NCBI GenBank assembly: GCA_027306755.1 | Contig: DAHUZE010000058.1 | Coordinates: 1-64,000, forward strand | Reading direction: 5' to 3' | DNA length: 64,000 bases | Source: Acidimicrobiaceae bacterium | GTDB taxonomy: Bacteria > Actinomycetota > Acidimicrobiia > Acidimicrobiales > RAAP-2 | Part shown: positions 21,058-30,240 of the stretch, one piece after another | How positions within the stretch are numbered: position 1 is the stretch's first letter | Layout of the letters: every line of letters starts with the position of its first letter | Made by a program: the position numbers and the translations under genes | Notes under the pieces: model-generated | Database searches by the model: none | What the model saw: the letters and a program-made list of their open reading frames with translations, nothing else | Told to the model about the DNA's origin: nothing

Positions 21058-21630
21058 CTACTCCTCCTGATCCTGGTTCTTCTGCCGGGCGGCCGCCGAC
21101 TGCTTGGCCCGCTTGTCCGGCGCCAGCACCATCACCATGTTGCGCCCGTCCAACCTGGGCTCGGCCTCCACCTTGGCCGACCCGTCCATCTGCTCGGCGA
21201 TCCGGTCGAGGATCCGCTTGCCCAGCTCTGGGTGGAAGACCTCGCGGCCCCGGAACATGATCGTGATCTTGACCTTGTGGCCGTCCTCGAGGAACCGCCC
21301 GACCTGGCGGGTCTTGGTGTCGAAGTCCCCGGGCCCGATCTTGGGCCGGTACTTCATCTCCTTGATCCCGACGTGGACGGCCTTGCGGCGGCTCTCCTTG
21401 GCCCGCTGTGCCTCGTCAAACTTGAACTTCCCGTAGTCCATGATCCGGCACACCGGTGGATTGGCCATGGGAGCCACTTCGACGAGGTCCATGTCGAGCC
21501 CGCGCGCGATGCTCAGGGCCTCGGGCAGCGGCTTGATCCCCAACTGCTGCCCGTCGGGATCGACGAGGCGGACCTCGCGTGCCCGAATTCGATCATTGAT
21601 CCGGTGCTCAGGTGCGGTGGCGGTGACTAT
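21058..21630 (-). CDS. infC: Translation initiation factor IF-3, probable AUA start
   Basis: Frame upstream of the listed TTG start encodes conserved [27 protein letters not shown]; no ATG/GTG/TTG before in-frame TAG at 21646-21648. Confidence 0.9.
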
Positions 21631-27136: not shown

Positions 27137-28075
27137 CTACCGGTCGCCCAGCCGCTCCCCCTCGCCCGGCCGTGCCCCCCGGATCCATGTGGCGGCTGCC
27201 ATCGGCGTGCGGCCTTCGGGCTGAACCCGCTGCAGGCGCAGCCCCCCCTCGCCGGCCACCACCACGACGCCCACCAGCGCCCCGGGCCGCAGGACGCGGG
27301 CCGCGGCGCCGGCGGGCGTCACGCCGGCCTCGGCCTCGAGCACCCGCAACCGGCGGCCCCGCCACGTGGTGAACGCCCGGTCGAGCCTCACGACCCGTTC
27401 CAGTTCGACTGCAGGACGCGCCCATCGCAGCTCGAGGTCGGCCGGGTCGATCTTGTCCGCGTAGACCGGCTCACCGCGCTGCGGTCGGGGCACGGGCAGG
27501 TCCCCCGAGAGCAGGTCGACGAGCAACCGGGACCCGGCGTGGACGAGCCGGTCCCGGAGGGGCCCGAGATGCTCGCCGGGACCGATCGGCACCCGCTCGA
27601 CGGCGTAGAGCGGTCCCGTGTCGAGCGTGGCCTCGAGCGCCATGGCGCACACCCCGGTGACATCGTCACCGGCCAGGATCGCCCGCTCCACGGGGGCCGC
27701 GCCCCTCCAGCGCGGCAGGAGCGAGAAGTGCAGGTTGACCATGGGCAGATGCTCGAGGACGCGCTGCGGGACGATTCTCCCGTACGCGACGACCACGCCG
27801 AGCTCCGCGCCGGCGTCGACGGCCGCCTCGATCGAGTGGGCCACGGGGATGCCGAGCAGTTGGGCTTCCGCCTTGACGGGGCTCGGGTTCAGGTCCGCAC
27901 CCCGTCCACGGCGCCGGTCCGGGCGCGTGACGACCAGCCGTACGTAGTGGCCGGCGCCCACCAGGGCCCGAAGTGGCGGAACCGCTAGATCCGGCGTCCC
28001 CAGGTAGACGAGGCGCCGCCCTGCGATGACGGGGCCACGAGCCGCGCCTCCTCCGGCGCTGCCCGGAACGCTCAG
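27137..28075 (-). CDS. fmt: Methionyl-tRNA formyltransferase, probable CUG start
   Basis: RLVYLGTPDLAVPPLRAL...NPSPVKAEAQLLGIPV...NLHFSLLPRWRGAAPVERAI; CTG at 28075 overlaps def stop (CTGA). Confidence 0.9.
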   Translation of the reverse strand: MSVPGSAGGGAARGPVIAGRRLVYLGTPDLAVPPLRALVGAGHYVRLVVTRPDRRRGRGADLNPSPVKAEAQLLGIPVAHSIEAAVDAGAELGVVVAYGRIVPQRVLEHLPMVNLHFSLLPRWRGAAPVERAILAGDDVTGVCAMALEATLDTGPLYAVERVPIGPGEHLGPLRDRLVHAGSRLLVDLLSGDLPVPRPQRGEPVYADKIDPADLELRWARPAVELERVVRLDRAFTTWRGRRLRVLEAEAGVTPAGAAARVLRPGALVGVVVVAGEGGLRLQRVQPEGRTPMAAATWIRGARPGEGERLGDR

Positions 28076-28557
28076 CTGGCCAGCGCCCGAGCTCGGAGGA
28101 TCTTGAGGGCCTCCCGGCGCTGGTCATCGTTCAGCCGCTCCAGGAGAAGCGTCCCGTCGAGATGGTCGACCTCGTGCTGGAAGACGCGTGCCTCGTACTC
28201 GTCCGCCTCGATCGACACCTCGTCACCGTCCATGCTGAGCCCCACGAGGTGCACCTGTTTGGGACGCACGATCTCCCAGCTCAAGCCCGGAACGGACAGG
28301 CAGCCTTCCTCGAAGGTCCATTCGCCCGAGGACTCGACGATCCGCGGATTGATGATGGCTCGGGGGCCGTCCCCGATGTCGTAGACGAAGAGCCGCCGCT
28401 GCACGCCCACCTGATTGGCTGCGAGGCCGACGCCCGGCGCTGCGTACATCGACTCCACCATGCCGTCCACGAGCTTGGCGACCGTGCCGTCGATCTCCTC
28501 CACGTCCTTGGTCGCCTGCTTGAGGACAGGATCGCCATACTGGCGGATTGTGAGCAC
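28072..28557 (-). CDS. def: Peptide deformylase
   Basis: GVGLAANQVGVQRRLFVYD, EEGCLSVPG, FQHEVDHLDG. Confidence 0.97.
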   Translation of the reverse strand: MLTIRQYGDPVLKQATKDVEEIDGTVAKLVDGMVESMYAAPGVGLAANQVGVQRRLFVYDIGDGPRAIINPRIVESSGEWTFEEGCLSVPGLSWEIVRPKQVHLVGLSMDGDEVSIEADEYEARVFQHEVDHLDGTLLLERLNDDQRREALKILRARALAS

Positions 28558-28580: not shown

Positions 28581-30233
28581 TCACACGTCGTCGGGGTCGA
28601 CCCTGACGCCGCCGCGGAGCGGGGCGACGGCGTCGCACAGGACGGTGTGGTCCGCCCCCCGCACCAGCCAGCGGCCGGTGACGAGCGGGGAGACCTCCAC
28701 TCCGCCGAGCACAGGCGAATCGGGGCTCTTGACGGTGGCCAGCGCGCTGTACGGAGGAAGGTCGAGCGCTCGGCGCAGCTCCAGCTCTGTGGCAAGGCCG
28801 GGATCGCCGTGCACGGCGGCGCGCAGCACGCCGTGGTCCGGAACCCGCGTCTGGACGACCACTGTGCCCGCGGCCGGCTGGTCACGGCCGCCCACGAGGC
28901 GGCTGGCGCGTGCCAGGAGCGCCAGAGCCTGCTCCCCCGCTGCGAACCGTGGGGCCAGGAGATGCTGGTCGAAGTCCAAGAAGACCACCGCCGCCGCCCG
29001 GCGCGCCCGGTGCAGCACCGCTTCGGTGCCGATGAGAACCGGGGTGTCCGGCAGCACCTCGGTGGCGGCCGATACCTCGCCCACCTCGGTGCCCAACAGC
29101 GCCGAGAGCTCCTCGCGCACCCGGCTCACCCCAGGGCGGAGCACCTTCAGGCGCCCCGATCCGCACGCGGCGCACACCAGGGGACGCTCGGTCGCGCATG
29201 CCCGGCACACCAGCATCGTGCCGGCGGTCTCCACGGCGCTCCCGCAGCGTTCGCACCGCGCCAGCGCCCCGCAGCTGGCGCAGGCCAGCAGCCTCGCCCG
29301 CCCGGTGCGATTGAGGACGCACACCAGCCGTCCCGGCAGCACGCGGCGGGCCAGCCGCACGAGCTCCTCGGAGAGGAGGCCGGTGCGTGGGTCCGCGCCC
29401 CGCCGGTCGACGACGCCGATCCGGGCCCATCCGGCCCGTTCCTCCTGCCTCGCCAAGGTCCGCACCGGACCGTGCCCCACCACCTGGACGGCCGTGGGGC
29501 ACGGGGAGACCAGCAGGCACCGGGCACCGTCGGCAACGGCCCGAGCGGCAACCACCTCGGCGGCGTCGTACCGGTCGGAGTAGTCGTGGGCGTCGAGCAC
29601 GACGGCCCCGCCCAGCCGAGGGACGGGGGCCCACGCCGCGGCCCGTGACCCGACAACCACGGGCCAGCCGGCGGCCGCCTCGGCCCAGCTGGAGGCGACC
29701 GCGATGCCCCGCCGGCGCAGCCGGCCGGCGAGCCGATCGGCCCACCCGGTTGCCGGAACGAGCACGAGCACGGGGCCGTCCGCCTGCTCCAGCGTGTCGA
29801 GCACCATCGGTAGCAGGTCCCTGGCCGGGGGCACCCGCCAGAGCTCCACGGACCCGCCGCCGGGCTCCCGCCGTGCCGTGGCCGGCGCCCGCGCCGGAGG
29901 AGGCGGCGGCGGCAGCTCCCACACGTTGCGCTCTGGAGACGCCGCCCTGAGCACGGTCGCCAGCGGCATCGCCCAACGCCATGCCGCCCATCCGGCAACG
30001 GCGAGCACGCCCGGAGGCGGCCCGCAGCCGGAGAGCTTGGACACGTCTCGGAGCGCCACCCCGTCGGGGGGCTCCACGCCCACCTCGACGACCCACGCGC
30101 CGACATGGCGTCCATGGAAGGGGACGCGGACCCGCGAGCCCACCCGCAGCTCCCCGAGCCAGCGATCGGGAACGGCGTAGTCGAACCGGCGGTCACTGAC
30201 TGCCGGAACGTCGGGGACGACGCGGACGATCAG
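28581..30233 (-). CDS. priA: PriA-like primosomal protein with degenerate helicase motifs; probable CUG start
   Basis: LIVRVVPDVPAVSDRRFDYAVPDRWLGELRVGSRVRVPF; Zn-binding CxxC array retained; Walker A absent. Confidence 0.85.
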   Translation of the reverse strand: MIVRVVPDVPAVSDRRFDYAVPDRWLGELRVGSRVRVPFHGRHVGAWVVEVGVEPPDGVALRDVSKLSGCGPPPGVLAVAGWAAWRWAMPLATVLRAASPERNVWELPPPPPPARAPATARREPGGGSVELWRVPPARDLLPMVLDTLEQADGPVLVLVPATGWADRLAGRLRRRGIAVASSWAEAAAGWPVVVGSRAAAWAPVPRLGGAVVLDAHDYSDRYDAAEVVAARAVADGARCLLVSPCPTAVQVVGHGPVRTLARQEERAGWARIGVVDRRGADPRTGLLSEELVRLARRVLPGRLVCVLNRTGRARLLACASCGALARCERCGSAVETAGTMLVCRACATERPLVCAACGSGRLKVLRPGVSRVREELSALLGTEVGEVSAATEVLPDTPVLIGTEAVLHRARRAAAVVFLDFDQHLLAPRFAAGEQALALLARASRLVGGRDQPAAGTVVVQTRVPDHGVLRAAVHGDPGLATELELRRALDLPPYSALATVKSPDSPVLGGVEVSPLVTGRWLVRGADHTVLCDAVAPLRGGVRVDPDDV

Positions 30234-30240
30234 CGCACGA

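Follow-up and report, generated by a model that had tools for sequence, protein, structure and literature searches.

Synthesis of methionyl-tRNA formyltransferase in the 64,000-nucleotide stretch of Acidimicrobiaceae DNA analysed here (the window) probably begins at a CUG codon. The gene, fmt (27137–28075, minus strand, as read from this codon), lacks a canonical start codon, and this lack is a real feature. Taken jointly, three statements are considered probable on the sequence data: the gene is intact, it would be translated from CUG at 28075, and this start would be a restart coupled to the termination of def. Thus read, fmt is best regarded as joining the few genes in which non-canonical starts recur.

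The best match of the encoded protein among NCBIfam models was by far TIGR00460 (E=3.3e-46, 157.9 bits, positions 22–303 of 313 aligned), with a score below the curated cut-off of this model (201.5 bits). The gene is called fmt despite this score because of its motifs, its place beside def and its single copy. The Fmt motifs SPVK, HFSLLPRWRGAAPVERA and LDTG are conserved (alignment A1), and the same alignment contains the start of the N-terminal fold and the motifs of the catalytic region (LGTP, SPVK, SLLPRWRGAAP, LDTG), as found in members of the family. No second fmt-like match occurs in the assembly (2.55 Mb, 108 contigs, 82% complete).

Peptide deformylase is encoded by def (28072–28557, minus strand, GTG start; NF001159, E=4.4e-50; TIGR00079 above cut-off), which is located upstream of fmt in the same direction and terminates with TGA at 28074–28072. 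The CTG at 28075–28073 shares two bases with this stop (CTGA, –4 nt) and is the sole in-frame NTG codon between the def stop and the fmt core, from which it is separated by 21 codons. Reading back from 28075, the first stop in the fmt frame is a TGA 38 codons before LVYLGTP. Between this TGA and the conserved RLVYLGTP the window sequence contains no in-frame ATG, GTG or TTG, and no Shine–Dalgarno (SD) sequence precedes the CTG. The first listed fmt reading frame starts inside the conserved fold, at an internal GTG (27961, MGAGHY). The absence of a canonical start at the N-terminus, the in-frame CTG overlapping the def stop and the late opening of the listed frame at MGAGHY had all been reported in the preliminary description, and each was borne out. 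A stretch of about 21 codons without a canonical codon is not unusual in GC-rich DNA on chance alone; the absence is meaningful since the gene is conserved and its relatives share the lack.

Twelve genomes of the genus, including this one, gave an fmt match. In these independently assembled genomes canonical starts are mostly absent and an in-frame CTGAGC is mostly kept. Four loci (L003, L006, L009 and L010) carry CTGAGC in frame at the def stop, as in the window, at 10, 10, 25 and 12 codons from the core, respectively, with ATG, GTG and TTG absent from the 80 codons next to the core or altogether. In L004, L007 and L008 small repeats shift the def stop upstream and the downstream CTGAGC is still in frame: the lengths between the def stop and CTG differ by 11 and 22 nt, and those between CTG and the core (23, 26 and 26 codons) differ by whole codons. 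An additional in-frame GTG is found at –8/–7 in L007 and L008 (codons counted back from the core). In L002 an ATG (–26) and a CTG (–13) each belong to one of two tandem-repeat copies, and fmt starts with GTG in L011 and with ATG in L012. Two observations count against the CUG reading: in L005 (G004) CTGA is not in the fmt frame and an alternative start is absent, and neither the length nor the sequence of the CTG-to-core extension is conserved within the genus.

Short tandem repeats are a recurring element of the def–fmt or metK–priA junctions in L002, L004, L007, L008 and L422, where the upstream stop has been moved and the in-frame CTG of the next gene kept.

Another start could be provided by the sequence downstream of the CTG. 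The SD-like GGAGGAGG (28054–28047, minus strand) is located 8 nt before a GTG (28038–28036), which is one frame off and opens a reading frame of 17 codons closed by TAG (27985–28038, minus strand), as the preliminary description had it. If a single C were missing from the adjacent run of four, owing to an assembly error or a real strain indel, this GTG (MAPVIAGRRLVYLGTP) would be the true start: one extra C brings it into frame and gives an N-terminus of normal length, and an 8-nt SD at a spacing of 8 nt is a notable coincidence in this MAG. The C4 run itself is present, at 28034–28031 and not at the first reported 28032–28035. Comparison of orthologous def–fmt junctions, a check suggested earlier, revealed no relative with an SD-preceded GTG at the aligned place; GGAGGAGG is not common to the aligned relatives, the GTG and the SD are absent from all aligned same-genus genomes, and these genomes are likewise without canonical starts. 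Short-read assemblies seldom drop a base in a run of four C, which also counts against a missing base at 28034–28031, and we consider it rather unlikely. Neither a missing C nor a frameshift is needed, since the relatives have no SD-preceded GTG and the canonical start is absent in many genomes; assembly error as a general cause was rejected on the latter ground. Of the three explanations originally offered, the CUG start is favoured by the data from the genus and the order.

The order-wide survey comprised 173 distinct fmt loci, the named matches being Acidimicrobiales/Acidimicrobiia and Actinomycetota MAGs and the isolate Desertimonas flava, in which fmt starts with ATG; nearly all of the surveyed genomes are MAGs. 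Canonical starts peak at –3/–2 and around –10/–11, and the peaks of CTG (16 at –2, 9 at –3, 19 at –10 and 8 at –11, compared with about 1–2 per distal position) coincide with those of ATG, GTG and TTG. All 25 loci with CTG at –2/–3 are without a canonical codon within 16 codons, versus 31 of the 148 others (Fisher p=6e-15; this and the following p-values are descriptive, because start regions were read motif-anchored, with codons counted back from the core, and the genomes are related). Eight comparison codons displayed no such association with the absence of a canonical codon among the 173 loci. A canonical codon is absent from the whole open frame in 22 of the 173, 20 of which have an in-frame CTG; the remaining two are L005 and L109, the latter with ACG at –2. 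In eight loci an in-frame stop is located 4–10 codons ahead of the core and no canonical codon separates the two; CTG is present in seven of these. An SD-like motif precedes 11 of 28 CTGs, versus 12.6% in shuffles (descriptive p=3e-4). In a nearly closed genome (L246, 2 contigs) only CTGA is available at fmt. In some of the loci labelled CTG a canonical codon is located far upstream, within def, which counts against the CUG reading. On the fmt tree at least 15 changes of the CTG/canonical label are counted, versus a shuffled mean of 28 (9 changes with the strict label); the CTG trait is therefore inherited and has been gained or lost many times.

In L109 (G317) only GGA CGC GCC ACG CGC is found between the def TAG and the fmt core; an ACG start or a sequence error is possible at this locus.

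Outside the order, the phylum sample includes another actinobacterial family (f65) in which CTG at –2 of fmt overlaps the def stop as CTGA in six genomes, three of them with a clear AGAGGA-type SD before the CTG; ATG is the fmt start in two other genomes of this family. Two properties of genes with recurrent non-canonical starts were thus found at fmt: no usable ATG, GTG or TTG, a lack common to relatives, and the occurrence, in independent lineages, of a non-canonical codon at the equivalent start position (the peaks across the order, the changes on the tree and f65). In two genomes of family f97 (L276 and L278) AUA and GUA overlap the def UAA behind an SD and are the apparent fmt starts.

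Alternatively, the start could be a different non-canonical codon closer to the core, such as AUC or GUC at –5/–6. Such codons are used elsewhere: infC of this lineage has AUA/AUC, Streptomyces sigR has GTC (PMC5472188), and the two f97 genomes apparently have AUA or GUA. However, AUC/GUC at –5/–6 is not common to the genus. In addition, Ala (GCG/GCA) predominates at residue –4 in the genus, which hints that ribosomes are already translating before they reach this residue. A start of this kind is considered unlikely indeed.

The position of the CTG relative to def is also distinctive. In 40 of 46 loci the CTG start lies between –4 and +14 nt relative to the def stop, compared with 39 of 95 canonical starts (descriptive p=2e-7), and 20 CTGs overlap the stop as CTGA. 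Reporter work has limited termination–reinitiation to overlaps or gaps of less than about 20 nt (PMC10666635; PMC6728339), and the def–fmt pair of the window, with CTGA at –4 nt, falls within this range. In the proposed mechanism, ribosomes or 30S subunits would end def at UGA and restart locally on the overlapping near-cognate CUG, using the ordinary fMet initiator tRNA, and the product would be Fmt with an extension of roughly 21 residues before LVYLGTP. The initiator tRNA has a CAU anticodon and three G–C pairs in this genome and in 34 of 40 others; an altered initiator tRNA was rejected on account of this canonical anticodon and G–C stem. From the distance to the def stop, the published range, the SD enrichment and the normal initiator tRNA, we infer initiation at the CUG by local reinitiation, with a yield below that of AUG.

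Programmed frameshifting could join def and fmt into a Def–Fmt fusion, which would make an fmt start unnecessary. In the window fmt is read in frame –1 with respect to def and no stop separates them in the fmt frame, but across the CTG loci the frame relation takes all three values, several of these loci have an in-frame stop just before fmt, and a slippery site is not evident at the def–fmt junction. The fusion was rejected on the inconstant frame relation and the in-frame stops, and its probability is very small.

Many canonical relatives have the fmt start further from the def stop. A TAGCGT-like –10 element is present a few nt before the fmt ATG or GTG in L015, L024, L032, L044 and other loci of the family; where such an element precedes fmt and def is not close, fmt transcripts are perhaps leaderless.

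Other genes served as controls. At the same loci def has a canonical start at the conserved place in 88 of 88 cases, none needing CTG; metK is canonical in 30 of 30, and coaBC has a canonical codon upstream of the core in all 24 read. Among 22 Pfam/NCBIfam-anchored genes of the window, only infC and priA, besides fmt, are without a well-placed canonical start: a canonical codon is absent ahead of the infC domain, and in priA the only one is located far upstream. The use of CTG in all genes of the lineage was rejected, as def, metK, coaBC and most window genes are canonical. The wording of the preliminary description, by which fmt "also" lacked a canonical start, agrees with priA (CTG 30233) and infC (AUA 21630) in the same window.

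The infC gene (21058–21630, minus strand; TIGR00168, E=4.4e-62) starts with AUA (21630–21628). AUA or AUC is its start in 29 of 29 loci read in the order, in addition to the window; the method therefore recovers a known non-canonical case. The priA gene (28581–30233, minus strand) probably starts with CTG (30233–30231), 7 nt after the metK TGA; a GTG at 30238 is out of frame. CTG ATC GTC occupies the same codon position of priA in all readable same-genus loci, and in several of them the CTG overlaps the metK TGA; outside the genus, CTGAGC is found at priA in L222, L230 and L231. Since priA displays the same habit, the feature extends beyond fmt, and specificity for fmt was dropped. A CTG start may be a mark of coupled junctions generally; the habit of the order would be that fmt, and probably priA, can start at a CUG no more than about 15 nt from the upstream stop. 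One further candidate for CTG initiation, rpe (CTG AAG), was rejected, its conserved extension beginning at GTG –16.

A weak start behind def would hold the synthesis of Fmt below that of Def. In the yeast cytoplasm Fmt is toxic unless Def is overexpressed (reviewed in PMC7949028), and dosage control by a weak fmt start behind def is therefore plausible. The data agree just as well with a neutral tolerance of CUG at coupled junctions. Weak starts depend on fMet-tRNA, which is the product of Fmt; on this basis the fmt CUG could represent a second homeostat of the infC type, in which the formylation state or IF3 sets the dose of Fmt relative to Def, and CUG could be a regular, unannotated fourth start codon at the coupled junctions of the order. 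This combined proposal is regarded as doubtful.

Among the papers searched, no report of a CUG-started fmt was found. Evolutionary switches to CUG have been reported as very infrequent, at 2 of 61,358 ancestral AUG starts and 1 of 5,080 GUG starts (PMC5622118). Counting against the CUG reading, CTG initiated poorly both in reporters in mycobacteria (PMC4633059) and in E. coli complexes reconstituted in vitro (PMC11497404); in the passages concerned, neither result bears on a coupled junction. Few non-canonical starts have comparative support; here one housekeeping gene has undergone at least 15 CUG/canonical switches within one order, near an AUA-started infC. If CUG initiation is true, gene callers assign a wrong start to fmt (and priA) or shorten the gene in these genomes, and the def–fmt junction is a natural test of start-codon relaxation by termination–reinitiation and of whether initiation fidelity controls the dose of Fmt.

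The closest known case is infC, which encodes IF3, has an AUU, AUC or AUA start and is autoregulated by IF3. Like fmt, it serves translation initiation and has a recurrent non-canonical start missed by standard annotation. Unlike the infC starts, the fmt CUG is a first-position mismatch, alternates with ATG/GTG among relatives and sits on the def stop; feedback through IF3 or formylation is only a conjecture for fmt. Termination–reinitiation at 4-nt ATGA overlaps (PMC6728339, PMC10666635) has the same NTGA geometry, the same –4 nt and the same short distance window as the def–fmt junction, but employs ATGA/GTGA instead of CTGA; PMC6728339 contains no mention of CTGA, and PMC10666635 none of CTG. 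Staphylococcus aureus ccpN (AUA) and cvfC1 (AUU) also have conserved non-canonical starts, which lower output; these depend on extended SDs (PMC13009471), whereas the fmt CTG of the window has none. In Streptomyces, the GTC start of sigR is repressed by IF3 (PMC5472188). This gene resembles the proposed fmt case in being actinobacterial and in having a weak start that keeps the product below its operon partner; sigR, however, is first in its pair with a GTC conserved in the genus, whereas fmt is second and its CUG comes and goes.
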